This document shows positions 27,883 through 36,532 of a DNA stretch of 64,000 bases, piece after piece. Position 1 is the stretch's first letter. Each line of letters opens with the position of its first letter. The notes under the pieces are model-generated. The model searched no databases. It was given only the letters and a program-made list of their open reading frames with translations, and was not told the DNA's origin. A program made the translations under genes and the position numbers. The stretch comes from Streptomyces sp. NBC_00690 (GTDB lineage Bacteria; Actinomycetota; Actinomycetes; Streptomycetales; Streptomycetaceae). The stretch lies in assembly GCF_036226685.1 (NCBI RefSeq), contig NZ_CP109009.1, positions 6,475,501 through 6,539,500 of the forward strand, written 5' to 3'.

Positions 27883-30800
27883 TCAGCCGGGGCAGATGGA
27901 CCGATGCGGAACATCGGGGAGATAGGTCTTCCACTCGGCCTTGGGAAAGGACTGCCCCGGTCGGGAACACAGTGCCTCGGCCGTGTGGCTGGCGTCGAGC
28001 GACCAGGTGTGGGACGCCGTGTGCGGGGTGGTCACCCGTACTTGCCGGGTGTCGGGGGTGAAGGAGAGCGCCAACACCGGCCCGTAGGACTGGGGGAGCG
28101 GTTTCCCCGGCGAACGGGGCGAGGCGGTGTCCCACACCCGTACTCCACCGCTGGCCTCGCCGACCGCGAGTTTGCGGCTGTCGGGGGAGAAGGCCAGCGC
28201 CGGAGGTGTCGCATCGACCGTCCTGTCCAGTGGGTCGCCCGCGCTCAGCACACTGATCCTTCGCCTCCCTTCGCCATCCCACAGGGTGATCCGCCCGTCC
28301 ACGTCGCTGACTGCCATCAGTTCACGGTCATTGCTGACCGCCACCGCCGTGAGCGGCCCCTCCCCATGGGCGATGAAGTGGTCGGCTGACATCCCGTTCG
28401 AGTCGTGGGTGATGCGCTGCCGGGCCGAGGTCACGAGGGAGTCGTACGCGCCCGTCGCGAGGACTGTACCCGGGCGGTCTTCGACCAGATTCGACCACAC
28501 CGCCCCCTTCTGTCCTGGAGCCAGTGAGAGCGCGTCCACGAACTGAAGGTGCGCATAGGTACGGGACACGACGACCTTGCCCAGTGAGTCGATGAGGGCC
28601 AGAGCCGTGACACCGGGGGGAACCGGGGGCGTCCGGGTGCGTCTGACGTTCTTCAGGTTCCACACCACGACCCGGCCCGACGCCGGGAGATACGCGAAGG
28701 TCTCGGAGTGGCGGTCGAACGCCAGGAAGCGGGCGCAGTCCACGTCGCAGGCCGCCGGGGCGGGCTCAAGCTCCCCCAGGCGTCCGGTGCCGTCGCCATT
28801 GCGGAGCTCGTACCGTCCAGCGCTGACGGTGGCGAGCGCGGTGCCGTCCGGGCTGTACTTCGCAGCTGTGAGCGGTACTTCCTGTGCCACGTCACGCGTG
28901 GGGGTGCTCACATGGATGGTGCGCACGGTGAAGGCGTGCTTCTGGCCCATCGCATAGCGCAGCACACCCCGGAACATGTCCAGGCGGAGGGCGAAGACGT
29001 TCCTGCCGTGTACGGGGAAGCGGAGCATGGGCTGGGTGGGGGAGGTCATGCGCCAGACCAGGATCTCCCCGTCGCCGAGCGTGGCCAGATAGGCTCCGTT
29101 TGCGCTGAACGCAAGATCGGACTGGGGTGTCGTCCCGACCCGGGCCAACTCCCGTCCCGACGACAGTTCCCAGCGACGGACACCCGTGGCGGTGGCGACC
29201 GCCAGCGTCCCTCCCTCCGGGGTGAACCGGAACGAGTTCCGCGCACAGCTGCCGATGCGGTCGAGCCAGGGTGTGGCGATCCGGCGCCGCTCGCGGACGT
29301 TCCAGAGCTGGAGCGGGCCTTCATCGGCGCAGAAGACCAGCAGGCGATCGTCGGATGTGACCTCGACCTGGTGGATCGTGTCCCATCTGCCGCCCGTATC
29401 GAGCACCTTCGCTCCGGACCGGATGTTCCACAGCCCCACCGATCGCCCCTGTTCGTGCAGGGCGAGCAGATGGCCGCGCGTCGTGAACCAGGATTGGGAG
29501 AATCCGTGGGGCGAGGTCAGTACCTGGCCCGTCGGTGTGCTCGACGAGAGGTCCCACAACTGGACTCCGCGTGCCACGCGGACGACGGCGGTCCGTAGAT
29601 CGGGGGCGATCTCCATCACCCGTGTCCAACTGCGTTCCAGGATCTTCAGCTGGGGAAGTCGATTGCCGCTCGACACGTCCCAGCGGTCGATGTGGTTCGC
29701 ACCGACGCTCATCACTGTCTGACCGTCCGCGCTGAGGCGGTGCTGACCGTTGATGAACCCGGGCGCGGAGGTCCACGGCGGAGTGAATGACGCGATGTCG
29801 GACTGGGCTGCCGCCGCGAAGAGCGCCCGCCGTGTCTCCGGGAGATCTGCCAGTCGCCAGGCAGCCAGACTCAGCCGGATGGCGGTGGCCGGATCGGTCT
29901 CCCGCATGGTGTCGGCCATCTGCGCCACTCGGCGGGCTTCCGCATCGACGGCGCGTCGCTGGCTCACCTCGCTCTGCCACCAGGCCATCCCCCCGGCGAT
30001 GGTGGCCAGACAGACCAGCAGGGAGAGGCACGCGGTGAGGAACCGCAGTCGACGGGTGGCCCGGGCACCCGCACGCCGGGCCTTGTCATGGGCCTGTGTG
30101 GAGGCCAGGAGGAACGCGCGTTCCTCTGGGGTGAGCGCGTCCGATTCGGTGAACGCCTCCCGTGCCAACTCCAGTTGTGCGCCCCAGTACAGTGCGCCCT
30201 CGTCCCGCCCCAACTCTTCCCAGACGCCGGCCGCCTCCGTCAACCTCCGGTGCATGCGGAGTGTTTCGCGGTCGTTCTCGATCCACCGCCGCAATCGGGG
30301 CCAGCCGGTGATCAGGGCTTCGTGGGCCAGATTGACCGCCTGGTCGTCGATGGTGAGCAGCCGGGCCCGCACCAGTCGTTCCAGCACGAGGGTCGACTCC
30401 GGTGACAGTTCCAACTCGGCCCGCTGGGCGGGGCGACGGGTGTCCGCGCTCGCCTCGCCCGGGGTGATCAACCGGAGCAGGAGTACGCGGGCGGCGTGCG
30501 CCTCCGGTTCGGTGAAGCCGGCGAAGACCCCCTCGGCGGTGTGGGCGATCGCCCCGTGGAGGCCGCCGATGGACTCGTACGCCGCCTCGGTGAGCGTCCG
30601 GCCGCGTCGGCGCCGCCAGATTTCCAGCAGGGCGTGCGACACCAGCGGCAACCCGCCGGGCTCGGCGCCCGCGTCGGCGACGATACGGGCGGTCAGCGCC
30701 CGCTCCACCGTGAGTTGCTCCGCGGTGGCGGGGCCCACCACGGCCTCCCGCAACTGTTCGGCCGTCATCGGTCCCACCAACAGGACGGCTTCCTTCAAGG

Positions 30801-31521
30801 CTGCGGCGAGTGCCGGGTGTTCCGCGCACCGGCCGTAGAAGTCGGCGCGGACGGCGATGACGATCCTGGCCGGGGAGTCGAGCAGCGCTTGGATGAAGGC
30901 GTTGCGTTCCACCGGGTTGCGGCAGACGGTGAAGAGTTCCTCGAACTGGTCCACGAGGACCAGCGCGCCTTCGCTGAGCAGCCCATCGCGGATGTGCGGC
31001 GGGCTCGGGGTGAGGATGCGGATCACCTCCGGGCCGTCCGTCGACGCCCGGACGGCGGGGATCAGCCCGGCCCGTAGCAGCGATGACTTCCCACTGCCGG
31101 ACGCCCCGACGAGCGCGACGAAGGGGCGCCGACCGATGAGCTCCAGCAGCTCGGTCACGAGTGCGTCCCGGCCGAAGAAGTGGTCGCTGTCCTCGGGCTC
31201 GTAGCGGGCCAGACCGGGGTACGGGGCTTCGGCGCCGTCGTCGCGCGTGTTGCCGGCCTCGTCGGCGGCGGCCATGTGCCAACGCTTCTCCCACAACTCC
31301 GGGTCCCCGCCGCAGGCCACGACATAGGCGAGCGTCACCGCGAGGGATGGCAGGCGCTCACCTGCCGCCGCGACCGAGAGCGTGGGCGCGGAGTATGGAC
31401 AACTCCTCGCCATCGCCCGATAGGTCGGGCCCCCCGCCGTACGGCGTAACTCCCTCAGCTCGGATGCGAAGCGCTGTACCGGCCCCGCCTCCGGCTCCAA
31501 CGGTTTCTCCCGACGTCCCAT
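27883..31521 (-). CDS. HTH - nSTAND1 NTPase - WD40 repeat protein
   Basis: A 1212-aa signal-transduction ATPase. Residues 1-100 form an XRE-like helix-turn-helix region (FASELRELRRTAGGPTYRAMARS). Residues 120-480 are the nSTAND1 NTPase, starting with PYPGLARYEPEDSDHFFGRD, Walker A GASGSGKSS (about residue 145) and Walker B ALVLVDQFEELF. A membrane-like helix (FLTACLSLLVCLATIAGGMAWW) lies near 515. The C-terminal 600 residues are WD40-type propeller repeats such as LAFSPDSRKLAVGEASGGVRVWD. I start at 31521 (GGGAGGGAG upstream). Codon 25 is TTA (31447-31449), so translation likely depends on bldA. STAND proteins of this plan act as ligand-triggered switches in regulation or immunity; the effector output is not evident. 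Confidence 0.9.
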   Translation of the reverse strand: MGRREKPLEPEAGPVQRFASELRELRRTAGGPTYRAMARSCPYSAPTLSVAAAGERLPSLAVTLAYVVACGGDPELWEKRWHMAAADEAGNTRDDGAEAPYPGLARYEPEDSDHFFGRDALVTELLELIGRRPFVALVGASGSGKSSLLRAGLIPAVRASTDGPEVIRILTPSPPHIRDGLLSEGALVLVDQFEELFTVCRNPVERNAFIQALLDSPARIVIAVRADFYGRCAEHPALAAALKEAVLLVGPMTAEQLREAVVGPATAEQLTVERALTARIVADAGAEPGGLPLVSHALLEIWRRRRGRTLTEAAYESIGGLHGAIAHTAEGVFAGFTEPEAHAARVLLLRLITPGEASADTRRPAQRAELELSPESTLVLERLVRARLLTIDDQAVNLAHEALITGWPRLRRWIENDRETLRMHRRLTEAAGVWEELGRDEGALYWGAQLELAREAFTESDALTPEERAFLLASTQAHDKARRAGARATRRLRFLTACLSLLVCLATIAGGMAWWQSEVSQRRAVDAEARRVAQMADTMRETDPATAIRLSLAAWRLADLPETRRALFAAAAQSDIASFTPPWTSAPGFINGQHRLSADGQTVMSVGANHIDRWDVSSGNRLPQLKILERSWTRVMEIAPDLRTAVVRVARGVQLWDLSSSTPTGQVLTSPHGFSQSWFTTRGHLLALHEQGRSVGLWNIRSGAKVLDTGGRWDTIHQVEVTSDDRLLVFCADEGPLQLWNVRERRRIATPWLDRIGSCARNSFRFTPEGGTLAVATATGVRRWELSSGRELARVGTTPQSDLAFSANGAYLATLGDGEILVWRMTSPTQPMLRFPVHGRNVFALRLDMFRGVLRYAMGQKHAFTVRTIHVSTPTRDVAQEVPLTAAKYSPDGTALATVSAGRYELRNGDGTGRLGELEPAPAACDVDCARFLAFDRHSETFAYLPASGRVVVWNLKNVRRTRTPPVPPGVTALALIDSLGKVVVSRTYAHLQFVDALSLAPGQKGAVWSNLVEDRPGTVLATGAYDSLVTSARQRITHDSNGMSADHFIAHGEGPLTAVAVSNDRELMAVSDVDGRITLWDGEGRRRISVLSAGDPLDRTVDATPPALAFSPDSRKLAVGEASGGVRVWDTASPRSPGKPLPQSYGPVLALSFTPDTRQVRVTTPHTASHTWSLDASHTAEALCSRPGQSFPKAEWKTYLPDVPHRSICPG

Positions 31522-31653
31522 GATCAGGCTCCCTCCCCCATGACTGCGAGCGTAGGGGAACCGAAGGGTGCGATGGATCGGAGGGCCACGCTCCACCGCC
31601 GGCCCGGTGAGCGGGCCGATGTGGGGACCCTGTCGATCAGCCGGTGAGCGGGC

Positions 31654-32285: not shown

Positions 32286-32903
32286 TCAGGAGGGGGCCGG
32301 GCCGAGCGCGGCAAGGCGTTCGAAGGCGGTGGGAGTGGGCCGCGACGGTAGGAAGTCCTTGATCCGTCGGGCGCACTCGGCCGATGTGGTGGTGCTGGTG
32401 TCGCACTCCAGGTCGTACAGGCCGTGTGCATGGACCCGTGTGAACTGGTGGGCGGCCAGCCCCACGAGGCGGTCGCCCCGGGCCTGTTCCCTGCGTTCCA
32501 ACTCCGGCAGCGGACAGTGCACACCGACGAGGACGACGTCCTGGGGGCGAAGGAGCGCCACACATTCCCTCAGGCGCCACGGCTCGCTCAGTACGTAGTC
32601 GACGATGACGGTGTTGCCGGCCGCCGCCATGCCGGCCACCGCGCGGTGGTACCCCATCCAGGTGCGCTTGAGGACGGCCGGTAGCCGATCCGGTGCGAGT
32701 GCGGGGCTCGACCGCATGGCGTGGAAGGCGTCCACCGGTAGATGGAAGCAGGGGTCTTCGAGTTGCGTGGCCAACTCGCGGGCGATGCTCGACTTGCCGG
32801 AACTCGACGTGCCGTTGAGGAAGATGACGAGACCGCCGACGGTCTCCGACACCTCCGGCCGGTCGACAGGCCCGTCCGCTGCGGCGGCTGGTGTGGTCGT
32901 CAT
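32286..32903 (-). CDS. Chloramphenicol 3-O-phosphotransferase-like kinase
   Basis: A 205-aa P-loop kinase of the CPT family. Walker A is [10 protein letters not shown] (about residues 29-38), and [17 protein letters not shown] with a conserved aspartate corresponds to the region bearing the catalytic Asp in the Streptomyces venezuelae enzyme. The [14 protein letters not shown] and [29 protein letters not shown] motifs are characteristic of the group. Many genomic homologues phosphorylate something other than chloramphenicol, so resistance is not assured. The gene stands alone before the DinB gene; divergent from the ATPase/nuclease operon. Confidence 0.85.
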
Positions 32904-33199
32904 CGTCGCTCGCTCACGGTCTGCGGGGATGCATCGTCGGGCCTCACCCGGACCAACCTACCGTCGGTGCACATCCTCCCGGTCGCCCGGCCCCACGGCA
33001 CACCCGGCAGGGTCCGAGAGCAGAGCCCGACCTCGGCCCCGAGCATCCCTGCGGGCACGGGCTACCTCGGGCCTTCGGATCGGGAACCCTCTCCTTTCCC
33101 CCACCGACCTGAACGACCCTTACAGGCGGTATCGTCCGTTTGCCAGATCGGATCCTGGCGTGCGCAGTGTGCACCACCGCGGGGAGGGCGAGCAGGACA

Positions 33200-34087
33200 A
33201 TGAGTGACAAGTCTGTTCAGACGCTGAATATCGAGGTCGACGACCTCTCTCTGTCCCTGGTGGGATGGCAGATCGACGAGGTCGAAGCGCGACTGGTCAC
33301 CAAGAGCTACGGGAAGAAGGACCACTTCCAGGAGATAGCGGTCTCCGGCACGGTCCGGTTCCTCCCCGAGGACTGGACGGACCGCTTCGGCGGCGGTGAC
33401 TACGCGCCACCCCTGCTGATCGCCCTGAGCCGTCGGGAGGATTCCTCCGCGGCCCCCCGGTACGAGCGAGTCGTCCTGGAGACCGTCAAGAAGGTGAGCA
33501 AGCGCCCCCAGCGGATCTCCCTCAAGAGCGCGTCATGGGAGTGCAAGAAGCCCCTTGAGGCCGAGGACATCGCCCTGCGCCTCACCGCCTTCGACGTGGA
33601 GGAGATCGACTCGGGGTTGAGCCTGCCGCCGACGAACTTCACCGCCCTGCCGATCGAGGTGCTGGACGAGACTACCCACGAGTCCGTACGACTGCGGCTC
33701 AACACCAGCAGCGCCCACATCCTCCGTGACTCCTACGACAAGGTGCTGCGGGTCCACCTCGAAGGCTCCGCCGAGTTCGGTACGGCGCAGCAACTGCTCG
33801 CCGACCACCTCGCGGCCGAGGACTGGCGCGATCAGGACGCGACCCTCGACGACGAGTGCCCCTTCGAGGTGGCCCTGCCCGGTCTGGTGGTGGAAGTGCT
33901 CGACGAGGCCGGGTTCCTCCTGCAAAAGCGCGAGGTCAGCCTGTACGGCCACATCGCCGTCCAGGACGGGGGGAAGCTTCCCGGGCGCCAGCCGCGCTGG
34001 ATCGCGGACGTCGGCGACGACCTCGACGAGTACGCGGGGCAGCCGGTGCGTGTCGTCGTCCGGCTCGTCGATGCGGAAGACCTGTGA
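33200..34087 (+). CDS. Unknown protein coupled to an HSP90-like ATPase
   Basis: A 295-aa soluble protein that I do not recognise. It is acidic, beta-rich in appearance (alternating hydrophobics, e.g. VVLETVKKVSKRPQRISLKSASWECKKP), without membrane segments or obvious catalytic motifs, and may contain two or three related beta-sandwich units (compare VEARLVTKSYGKKDHFQEIAVSGTVRF with VLRVHLEGSAEFGTA). ATG at 33200 is preceded by AGCAGGA; the frame is open upstream but without a better start. It overlaps the ATPase-nuclease gene by GTGA, so the two proteins are made together and probably form a complex. Confidence 0.72.
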   Translation: MSDKSVQTLNIEVDDLSLSLVGWQIDEVEARLVTKSYGKKDHFQEIAVSGTVRFLPEDWTDRFGGGDYAPPLLIALSRREDSSAAPRYERVVLETVKKVSKRPQRISLKSASWECKKPLEAEDIALRLTAFDVEEIDSGLSLPPTNFTALPIEVLDETTHESVRLRLNTSSAHILRDSYDKVLRVHLEGSAEFGTAQQLLADHLAAEDWRDQDATLDDECPFEVALPGLVVEVLDEAGFLLQKREVSLYGHIAVQDGGKLPGRQPRWIADVGDDLDEYAGQPVRVVVRLVDAEDL

Positions 34088-35895
34088 GCGAGCTCGTCCC
34101 TCGACTCACCGCACTCCAGGACGCGCTGGTCCGCGAACACACCCAGGCGCCCGGTCTCTTCGGGGAGATCGCGCGCATGGAGGGGCTGCTCGCCGAGACC
34201 TACCGCAATCGCGTCCCGTATGAACTGCTCCAGAACTCCGACGACGCGGGCTCCGGCACCGTACGCATCGAAGCCCTCGGCGGCGGGCGCTTTCGCTGGA
34301 CCAACGACGGACGCCTCCTCGACGCCGCGGACGTCGAGGCGCTGTGCCGCAGTGCGAGTTCCACCAAGACCCGTGGTGGGGATTCGATCGGCTACCGGGG
34401 CATCGGCTTCAAGTCGCTGGCCGCGGTCGCCACCCGCATCGACGTGCGCTCCGGTGATGTGGGCTTCTCCTTCGACCGTGCCGCCTCGGCCGCGCTGCTC
34501 GGGGAGATGAGCCCGAACGCCATCCCGTTGATCCGGATACCCTCCGAGATCCACCGCGGGGACCCGGTGCACGGCGCCGTCTTCACCGTGACCTGCCGAC
34601 CCGAAGCGGATGCCGGGTTCGACGCCCTCGACCCGATCAGCGCGCTCTTCCTACGGAACGTGCGGCGTATCGAGATCAGCTCCGACGTCGGCAAGCGCGA
34701 CATCCACATCGAGCGCGACGCCTCGGACATCGTCCTTCGGCTGGCGGAGGGCGAAGCCCGGTTCGGGGTCCTGGTGCACGGCCGGGCGACCGTTGCCGTT
34801 CCGTTGAATGCCCGGGCCATGACGCTCACCGGACTGCGCGGCCGACTGGCGTGCTTCCTTCCCCTCGACGACGAGGTCGGTCTGCCCGTCGTCGTCTCGG
34901 GAGACCTCCTCACCGATCCTTCGCGCACCCATGCCGTGGTCGCCGACGAATCCACCCGACAGGTCCTCGCGGACGCTGCCCGGGCCATCGCCGACAGGCT
35001 GCGCACCCCGGGCGATCCCGTGTTCGATCGGCTGTGGCAACTGGTTCTGGAGGGCGAGGACATCCGCAACCTGCTGGTGTCCCCGGGCACATCGGCGAGC
35101 AAGCTCCTGGTCACCGCGCTCCGGCAGGAGATGACGGCCCGTCGCCCGCCCTTCGCGTACTCCGGCGTCCTGCTGGAGCCCGACGACGTGGCGGCTGTGT
35201 TTCCCGCGGGGGCGCCCGCGGCGCTGTATGCCCCCGGCAACCAGTCGGCCGCGCGGGCCGTCAAGGCGGTCCTTGGACTGGAGACGCTCGATCTGTCGGC
35301 GGTCCTGAGCGCACGGGGGAGCGAAGTACTCTCCGAACCGCTCCAGAGCCGATTGGGCGGGCACTTCCAGGAACTCGCCCGTACACACGGCCGCAAGCTC
35401 ACCCCGGTCGAACGGGAACTCGTCGAAGCGGCGGCGCCCGCCGTGCCACCGCCGCCGCCCACCGCCCCGGTGGTGTCCGCAGCCAAGGCCGCCCCCGCGC
35501 CGGACGGTTCCCTGCCGGCGGTCCTGGCGCGCTGGCGCACCGCCGAGATCGCCACCATGGAGTTCCTCAACGGCAAGGGCTGGAGCCTGCAGGACGTCAG
35601 CGGGCAGAACGTCGGCTACGACCTGGACGGCATCGACGCGCAGGGGCGACCCGTACGCATCGAGGTCAAGAAGGTCGACCGTCCCGACGCGCGGTTCGCC
35701 ATGACGAACAACGAGATGTCCCTGATGCTGACGACCCAGGGCGGCTATCTGCTGGCGGTGATCGTCGGAGACGGTCGCCATGTCGCCCTGATGCTCCTCG
35801 ACCCCTCGCAGGAGGATCTGCCGCGCGAGCGGGTCTGCCGTCGTTGGGACTGGGAGTTCACCGACTGGGCGCGCTTCGCCCGAACGGTCGAGTAG
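34084..35895 (+). CDS. Sacsin/HSP90-type ATPase fused to DUF3883-like (PD-(D/E)XK) domain
   Basis: A 603-aa two-domain protein. Residues 25-260 are a GHKL ATPase of the sacsin N-terminal class: N-box YELLQNSDDAGSG, G1 region RWTNDGRLLDAADVEALC and GxxGxG lid GYRGIGFKSL. A linker with a Pro-rich patch (VPPPPPTAP, about 450) leads to a C-terminal DUF3883-like module with a nuclease-type core: NVGYDLDGIDAQGRPVRIEVKK, in which the Asp of YDL and the IEVK residues fit D-(X)n-ExK. Related ATPase-plus-DUF3883 proteins occur in restriction/defence islands. A GTGA overlap links it to the gene before, and an 18-bp stem terminator follows. Defence is inference. Confidence 0.85.
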   Translation: MSELVPRLTALQDALVREHTQAPGLFGEIARMEGLLAETYRNRVPYELLQNSDDAGSGTVRIEALGGGRFRWTNDGRLLDAADVEALCRSASSTKTRGGDSIGYRGIGFKSLAAVATRIDVRSGDVGFSFDRAASAALLGEMSPNAIPLIRIPSEIHRGDPVHGAVFTVTCRPEADAGFDALDPISALFLRNVRRIEISSDVGKRDIHIERDASDIVLRLAEGEARFGVLVHGRATVAVPLNARAMTLTGLRGRLACFLPLDDEVGLPVVVSGDLLTDPSRTHAVVADESTRQVLADAARAIADRLRTPGDPVFDRLWQLVLEGEDIRNLLVSPGTSASKLLVTALRQEMTARRPPFAYSGVLLEPDDVAAVFPAGAPAALYAPGNQSAARAVKAVLGLETLDLSAVLSARGSEVLSEPLQSRLGGHFQELARTHGRKLTPVERELVEAAAPAVPPPPPTAPVVSAAKAAPAPDGSLPAVLARWRTAEIATMEFLNGKGWSLQDVSGQNVGYDLDGIDAQGRPVRIEVKKVDRPDARFAMTNNEMSLMLTTQGGYLLAVIVGDGRHVALMLLDPSQEDLPRERVCRRWDWEFTDWARFARTVE

Positions 35896-35916
35896 CCCTT
35901 CGACGTGTCCATTCTT

Positions 35917-35961
35917 CGGGAGCGAGGTCCGGCCGCAGCCCGTGGCCGGACCTCGCTCCCG
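35917..35961 (+). terminator. Very strong stem-loop terminator
   Basis: An 18-bp perfect stem: arms 35917-35934 and 35944-35961 (core GGGAGCGAGGTCCGGCC and its complement) with a 9-nt loop, 22 bp after the stop of the ATPase-nuclease gene. It closes the two-gene operon. Confidence 0.85.
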
Positions 35962-36090
35962 TGGGATGGGGGCCGATCGGGTGCCGTGGTCGGCGCAGCG
36001 CGATGTGGACACCGTCACGATCACGCCGCGTCGGTAGTGTCCGCTCGACGTTCACATTCGATGGCTCATCCACGACCAAGGGACAGATCC

Positions 36091-36288
36091 ATGCGTATGC
36101 GTACCCTGCTGGCCGCCCTCGCGCTCACCGTCGCCGGCATCGCCGGCGCTTCCACCGCCTCGGCCCAAGACTTCGGCGACATCATCATCACCATCGAGCA
36201 GGACCCGCGCATCGTCGTGGGGTGCAGCCCCGGCTTCGTGGTGGACTCCGAGTCCGCGCAGTGCGGGATCTACGACATCCTCGGCTGA
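36091..36288 (+). CDS. Small secreted peptide (65 aa)
   Basis: The N-terminus MRMRTLLAALALTVAGIAG plus ASTASAQD is a Sec signal peptide cut after residue 25, leaving about 40 residues. The mature peptide, DFGDIIITIEQDPRIVVGCSPGFVVDSESAQCGIYDILG, is acidic with two cysteines. AAGGGA precedes the ATG at 36091; an in-frame ATG ten codons earlier would extend the signal. Followed by a good terminator, so it is a separate transcript. I do not recognise a family. Confidence 0.7.
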   Translation: MRMRTLLAALALTVAGIAGASTASAQDFGDIIITIEQDPRIVVGCSPGFVVDSESAQCGIYDILG

Positions 36289-36297
36289 GGTCGTGCG

Positions 36298-36356
36298 CGG
36301 GGATCACACCGGGTCGGTGCGCGTCGACACCGCCCACTGACCCGGTCTGATCCCCG
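36298..36356 (+). terminator. Stem-loop terminator after the small secreted peptide gene
   Basis: An 18-nt arm at 36298-36315 (starting CGGGGATCA) pairs with 36339-36356 (ending TGATCCCCG) with a single mismatch, ten bases after the stop. Confidence 0.75.
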
Positions 36357-36532
36357 CCGCCACCCCTCCAGCACTGCCCGCCGTCCACGAGATGCCGTAC
36401 GGGGACTCGCGCGGTGCAGGACGGCCGGGGGAGTGGCCGGCAGCTTCATCGTCGTACCGCGACACCCACAACGGTCGCGAACCCTGGTGCACGAACCCTG
36501 GCGTACTCCGTCTACGCGGGTATCTTGGCCCG

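Follow-up and report, generated by a model that had tools for sequence, protein, structure and literature searches.

Known GHKL-nuclease systems and the locus

Tiamat (TmtA), a single-gene system, carries a sacsin-like GHKL ATPase at its N-terminus. The type I-D Shedu protein VcSduA joins an N-terminal GHKL ATPase to a C-terminal PD-(D/E)XK nuclease, and it loses its phage defence when either the glutamate of the GHKL domain or the lysine of the nuclease is mutated (PMC12137116). ParaMORC3 proteins are described as combining GHKL, S5 and C-terminal E-D-ExK domains, with the proposal that such GHKL ATPases loop DNA in restriction systems (PMC2292703), while DUF3883 is called a novel restriction endonuclease domain that lies C-terminally in helicases of the DUF499 systems (PMC3710099), named Hma elsewhere (PMC12839542). 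Here we analyse a 64,000-nucleotide stretch of Streptomyces sp. NBC_00690 (contig NZ_CP109009.1, positions 6,475,501 to 6,539,500; the window), in which two overlapping genes, A and B, encode a GHKL ATPase fused to a NOV_C nuclease-like domain and a separate companion. Judged by the defence genes with which its relatives are associated, the pair is probably an uncharacterised anti-phage system. Its kind, the GHKL-nuclease immune protein, is known; the two-gene, companion-exchanging NOV_C form appears to be new.

The open reading frame (ORF) coordinates and the GTGA overlap reported in an initial annotation of this DNA were confirmed. Both genes are real coding sequences rather than chance ORFs, with 47 homologs for gene A and at least 157 for gene B (E ≤ 1e-3; 7,998 candidates scored for gene B). 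The pair and the parts of gene B are as follows.

33200..34087, + strand: gene A, the 295-aa partner (ATG start), with a mostly beta AlphaFold2 model of two beta-rich halves (about residues 1-140 and 145-295)
34084..35895, + strand: gene B, a 603-aa GHKL ATPase with a C-terminal NOV_C nuclease-like domain (GTG start), overlapping gene A by the 4 bp GTGA
34144..35283, + strand: GHKL ATP-binding and middle (S5-like) region of gene B, about residues 21-400
34222..34245, + strand: Bergerat-fold N box of gene B, E47, N51 and D54 in YELLQNSDDA, placed by residue conservation
35512..35892, + strand: NOV_C (DUF3883) nuclease-like domain of gene B, residues 477-603, placed by PF13020 and the secondary structure of the model (DSSP)
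35545..35670, + strand: E-D-ExK signature of gene B, E488, D513, E527 and K529, placed by residue conservation

Architecture of gene B

Gene B joins an N-terminal GHKL ATPase of the sacsin/Hsp90 type to a NOV_C (DUF3883) domain at its C-terminus. It matches the sacsin N-terminal ATP-binding domain NF047352 (E 1e-17; 64.3 bits, cut-off 50) and, in a Pfam scan, PF13020 NOV_C over residues 492-565 (E 2.2e-9; 37.7 bits, above the gathering score of 22.1). We take NOV_C to be the new name of DUF3883, and homologs of gene B carry both labels. The N box is invariant across 49 aligned relatives and present in 53 of 55 distant ones, the remaining two having a gap there; E488, D513, E527 and K529 are likewise invariant in the 49 and kept in 55, 55, 54 and 55 of the 55, respectively. 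The modelled NOV_C domain runs helix-strand-strand-strand-helix-strand (DSSP), and residues 477-561 show the alpha-beta-beta-beta-alpha-beta core order of PD-(D/E)XK proteins with all four signature residues in place, an assignment made from secondary structure and motif without a match of this part to a solved structure. The ATPase-nuclease architecture put forward in the initial annotation is thus borne out, including the D-ExK fold whose absence had been named as grounds for abandoning it. Its wording of 'Walker' mutants was mistaken, as GHKL ATPases have a Bergerat fold and lack a Walker motif.

The pair is neither Tiamat nor Shedu, though built like both. The N-terminal part of gene B matches the PADLOC TmtA models at up to E 2.4e-23, and the best TmtA matches of four distant homologs scanned reach 1.5e-48 to 6.5e-55, which would fit a short, split relative of Tiamat and hence a system in essence already described. 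We consider this quite improbable. The TmtA models span 1063-1782 positions and align with the 603-aa gene B over the ATPase part, the best stretches lying within residues 8-220 (a weak one at 236-321) for profiles of 1302-1782 positions; the best match covers positions 42-226 of a 1302-position model. Gene B is less than half the profile length, and a conserved second gene accompanies it.

The N-terminal GHKL ATPase fused to a C-terminal restriction-endonuclease-fold domain with E-D-ExK is that of type I-D Shedu and paraMORC3. VcSduA differs in being one protein with a DUF4263 nuclease, whereas the present system has two genes and NOV_C; a Pfam scan of gene B at E ≤ 1 returned five families including NOV_C and no DUF4263. 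The C-terminus of gene B also matches that of HmaA weakly (E 0.0017), but in Hma the nuclease domain is carried by an SNF2 helicase and not a GHKL ATPase. Sacsin, Hsp90, MORC2 and GyrB differ in having cellular rather than accessory functions, and to our knowledge none carries a NOV_C domain.

A linked companion gene in actinobacteria

Gene A has no match in Pfam or PADLOC at E ≤ 1, in keeping with the initial statement that the partner belongs to no recognisable family; NCBIfam yields SecB alone, at E 0.23. Every one of its 47 homologs with an organism name is actinobacterial, and a profile search added five distant relatives at 26-29% identity, one of them named (Brachybacterium). The AlphaFold2 model, built from 39 sequences (gene A and 38 of the 47 homologs), is mostly beta, with a predicted local distance difference test score of 90.9 and a predicted template modelling score of 0.87; no convincing related solved structure was found. 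An in-register alignment of its halves (E 0.0019, probability 14%) suggests, without proving, an old tandem duplication.

Linkage of the pair, also claimed initially, holds up well. A contig scan with the ATPase alignment gave 79 loci, in which a gene A profile was searched to E 10 among ORFs of at least 80 aa. Matches occurred in L002-L011 only, each adjoining gene B (44-69% identical to ours), and the other 69 loci had none. An A-type gene thus lies directly upstream of B in ten of the 11 actinobacterial loci fetched; the eleventh, from Dietzia (L041; B 31%), has an unrelated adaptor, described below, in place of gene A. The 4-bp overlap recurs in L002, L004, L005, L007, L009 and L089. Gene A is frameshifted in L003 and L011, and L010 yields just a 127-aa piece. 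Of the 12 loci that hold both genes, 11 show lower conservation of A than of B (52 versus 68% identity in L002, 42 versus 62% in L004 and 29 versus 44% in L009), the exception being L089 with 72% for each.

Overlapping genes with the smaller first, and a nuclease-like domain in the larger, recall toxin-antitoxin modules: A would keep gene B, a nuclease toxin, inactive, and any phage defence would be a by-product of the release of B. Full-length orphan copies of gene A could then be leftover or anti-addiction antitoxins. Orphan copies occur in three genomes of the genus, G230, G320 and G278 (L119:8822-9700, L120:8170-9048, L121:8454-8774, which is a fragment, and L122:8333-9208) with no B match in the 17-18 kb fetched around them, and G230 holds a complete module elsewhere. 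We nevertheless regard this explanation as unlikely. The intact ATPase machine of gene B is unusual for a toxin, L003 has an unbroken B beside a frameshifted A (possibly a sequencing error), each unrelated companion found in other lineages would have to be an antitoxin as well, and the HIRAN fusions among them look more like sensors.

Two variants of gene A were observed. The Rhodococcus koreensis ORF (L008:8754-9120) carries about 120 extra N-terminal residues starting with a PGWYWD...RWWDGRVWT motif, which we take to resemble DUF2510. In Nocardia vaccinii, a second, diverged gene A (L006:11953-12837, - strand) lies convergent with the module, placing two companions around one engine.

Exchanged companions in other lineages

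Across bacteria, sequence comparison shows a constant ATPase-nuclease engine with changing companions. Among the loci L012-L074, 60 have a match to gene B, and 58 of these have more than 500 bp upstream of it. An adaptor family of about 110 aa is found within 1.2 kb in 39 of the 58, either as a stand-alone protein or forming the C-terminal part of longer ones (about 240 aa), with a terminal pattern like F.GFEVF...KIRIYPK. A second adaptor copy is fused to HIRAN, a domain that reads DNA ends, at L037:12155-12817 (E 5.2e-14), L051:8962-9630 (E 1e-7) and L070:8955-9647 (E 6e-14). Ankyrin repeats are fused to a second copy in L048 and to the sole copy in L069. Three adaptors scanned against PADLOC gave no match at E ≤ 1e-3.

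Two further companions emerged from the 19 loci lacking the adaptor. A 155-aa protein recurs downstream of B in L030, L040, L045 and L046 (a longer L053 protein clusters with these, and one in L064 was added by inspection), and a 209-212-aa protein recurs upstream of B in L054, L056 and L063. Profile comparison of gene A with the adaptor and with the 155-aa protein detected no homology. The initial annotation had suggested that the pair could be a new subtype; the partner is indeed a lineage-specific family, but other lineages use partners without detectable homology to it, so the term undersells the partner.

In L051 and L070, the HIRAN-adaptor fusion, a stand-alone adaptor and the ATPase follow one another as a three-gene array. 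Separately, Paludibacteraceae loci L075-L080 contain ORFs that match the ATPase weakly and are about 860-900 aa long, probably a different family, each preceded by a 193-227-aa gene; the L077 sequence of this gene presumably resembles a LOG-family protein.

Patchy distribution and mobility

The distribution of the module is one of gain and loss, not of vertical housekeeping inheritance. Gene B is present in five of 199 genomes of the genus, our own included, and one of these (G031) holds a C-terminal remnant; gene A is found in one of 61 near relatives, its own genome. One site is common to G185, G031 and S. philanthi (L011), and there the module is whole, a remnant and frameshifted, respectively. 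Elsewhere the genomic places differ: when 12 other module loci were searched for relatives of the 12 proteins flanking the module in the window, none came up at 1e-5. Co-conservation with housekeeping genes, which the initial annotation had named as a possible refutation, was therefore not seen. No empty site could be demonstrated because the flanking genes are themselves variable, the chloramphenicol-phosphotransferase (CPT) gene being found in 11 of 61 relatives at 1e-30 and the CdaR-type regulator in one of 61 at a strict 1e-100. One viral contig (L110) carries a 28% relative.

This patchiness bears on whether the pair might be a DNA repair or replication-fork maintenance module of the MutL/MORC type instead of a defence system. 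The GHKL fold of gene B resembles that of MutL and MORC, and some companions contain HIRAN, a domain known from eukaryotic fork remodelling. The scattered occurrence, the G031 remnant, the L011 frameshifts and the differing genomic places speak against such a role, as do the defence-rich neighbourhoods of relatives when set beside controls (below), and we rate it as improbable.

Defence genes around distant relatives

Near neighbours of distant gene B homologs match 119 PADLOC families at E ≤ 1e-25, from 140 proteins at 54 loci, a count of families and not of proteins in which several models may match one protein. The 25 of the 119 families listed include MkoA, MkoC, SoFic, type IV restriction enzyme, PD-T4-2, Hhe, AriB, HerA, SIR2 and AbiEii. 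Control regions from 18 carrier genomes gave nine families in 141 proteins, among them one type IIG restriction enzyme and the mads_3 model, matched by five proteins. The near set took up to two genes per side encoding proteins of at least 150 aa in L012-L074 (one locus, L041, is actinobacterial), leaving out the near-duplicate loci L015, L023, L029 and L033. Manual curation removed five of its 145 sequences, namely part of a broken ATPase (L064:10522-12006), two ORFs that are probably spurious (L068, L069) and, to fit a size limit, L060:3048-3668 and L071:320-772. Controls comprised the first eight ORFs of at least 150 aa from one 12-kb region in each of 18 genomes (14 with distant homologs and four actinobacterial carriers), the regions being picked blind to content at a distance of about 95 kb or more from the module. 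Neighbouring genes were called with a simple ORF picker.

In the clade of the window, eight of ten proteins picked by eye near the module match PADLOC and two match nothing, a selection that is not a count. L004 has DpdE-like and HmaA helicases, L007 a type IIG restriction enzyme just upstream, L009 MzaC, MzaD, a candidate (PDC) model and a type II methylase fragment, and L002 a PN-superfamily effector. In Dietzia, a type IV restriction enzyme precedes the adaptor and the ATPase.

Proposed function

We lean towards a role of the pair in accessory defence, in which a nuclease gated by ATP and switched by an exchangeable companion acts on foreign DNA. Upon binding ATP, gene B would dimerise through its GHKL ATPase, like Hsp90, MutL and MORC, and the closed clamp would position two NOV_C PD-(D/E)XK domains to cut DNA. 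Gene A, which shares an operon with B and has diverged more than B in most copies, may bind B and bring about closure of the clamp, and with it cutting, on recognising a signal of invasion, either a phage protein or a DNA end or structure. The companion would license closure, with VcSduA as a precedent. Going by the HIRAN fusions, some companions may read DNA ends. More tentatively, and with somewhat less than even confidence, the pair may belong to a large undescribed immune family in which one fixed GHKL-ATPase/NOV_C engine is combined with interchangeable companions that set what is sensed, like restriction specificity subunits: in actinobacteria, the tandem beta-rich protein; in Bacteroidota, Bacillota, Pseudomonadota, Cyanobacteria and others, the 110-aa GFEVF adaptor by itself or with HIRAN or ankyrin repeats attached; and at least two more.

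Several observations weigh against the defence reading. The window itself is not a defence island: its module is surrounded by genes for an nSTAND1-WD40 protein, a mycothiol S-transferase, a CPT kinase, a diacid regulator, a glycerate kinase and a GntP permease, and nine neighbours scanned at 1e-10 gave one PADLOC match, to a generic TPR model. The near set excludes L002-L011, leaving the window's own clade sampled by the ten hand-picked proteins only, and the tally of families rather than proteins tempers the comparison with controls. The association is with islands and not only with adjacent genes, because the far ends of the same loci, 8-10 kb away, still match 57 PADLOC families in 112 proteins. 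The adaptor is absent from 19 of the 58 distant loci, and its fusions say nothing directly about gene A because it lacks profile-level homology to A. A strict sensor-effector pair would not predict the orphan copies of gene A. Searches of plasmids (E ≤ 1e-30) and of phages (E ≤ 1e-15) did not return gene B. N74, kept in 54 of 55 distant relatives, is an apparent Asn where, we presume, classical GHKL motif II has an adenine-contacting Asp. Finally, the PADLOC copy used holds no model of the pair.

Literature searches, mainly of open-licence papers, turned up nothing pointing to the pair, which does not establish its absence from print. The initial claim of an undescribed defence system is partly upheld, by its architecture, conserved residues, linkage, patchiness, defence-rich relatives and VcSduA precedent, with defence itself inferred. 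If true, the pair represents a new two-gene ATPase-nuclease immune family of actinobacteria and many other lineages, with a constant engine and differing sensors, and swapping companions between homologous engines would show whether phage specificity follows the companion. It would also offer a tractable two-protein model for NOV_C/DUF3883, so far a label or a prediction in the papers examined at that term, and would bear on how sacsin/Hsp90-type ATPases gate effectors.

Surroundings of the unit

Other features of the region are as follows.

27883-31596, - strand: nSTAND1-WD40 gene, 1237 aa (PF20703, E 6e-118)
35917..35961, + strand: hairpin 3' of gene B, with a 20-bp stem, a 5-nt loop, z -7.3 and no T tract; a probable terminator
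36091-36288: small ORF 3' of the hairpin

The initial annotation cited the STAND-WD40 gene 'just upstream' in support of defence. This support falls away, as 1.6 kb and two unrelated genes separate it from the pair and it lies on the other strand; it also matches nothing in PADLOC at 1e-10, and it was rejected as a part of the system. The protein may itself be a switch of a conflict system.

A divergent CPT family gene starts at 32903 on the opposite strand; the gap of about 300 bp could hold a promoter. An Rfam scan of 32900-36400 gave zero matches, and a scan for T-tract terminators did not call the hairpin at 35917-35961, which lacks the tract. The closing stem noted initially is present after gene B, with 20 bp rather than 18. 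The 80-nt fold reaches -63.6 kcal/mol, a stability equalled in none of 200 shuffles, and this hairpin is the probable terminator of the unit.

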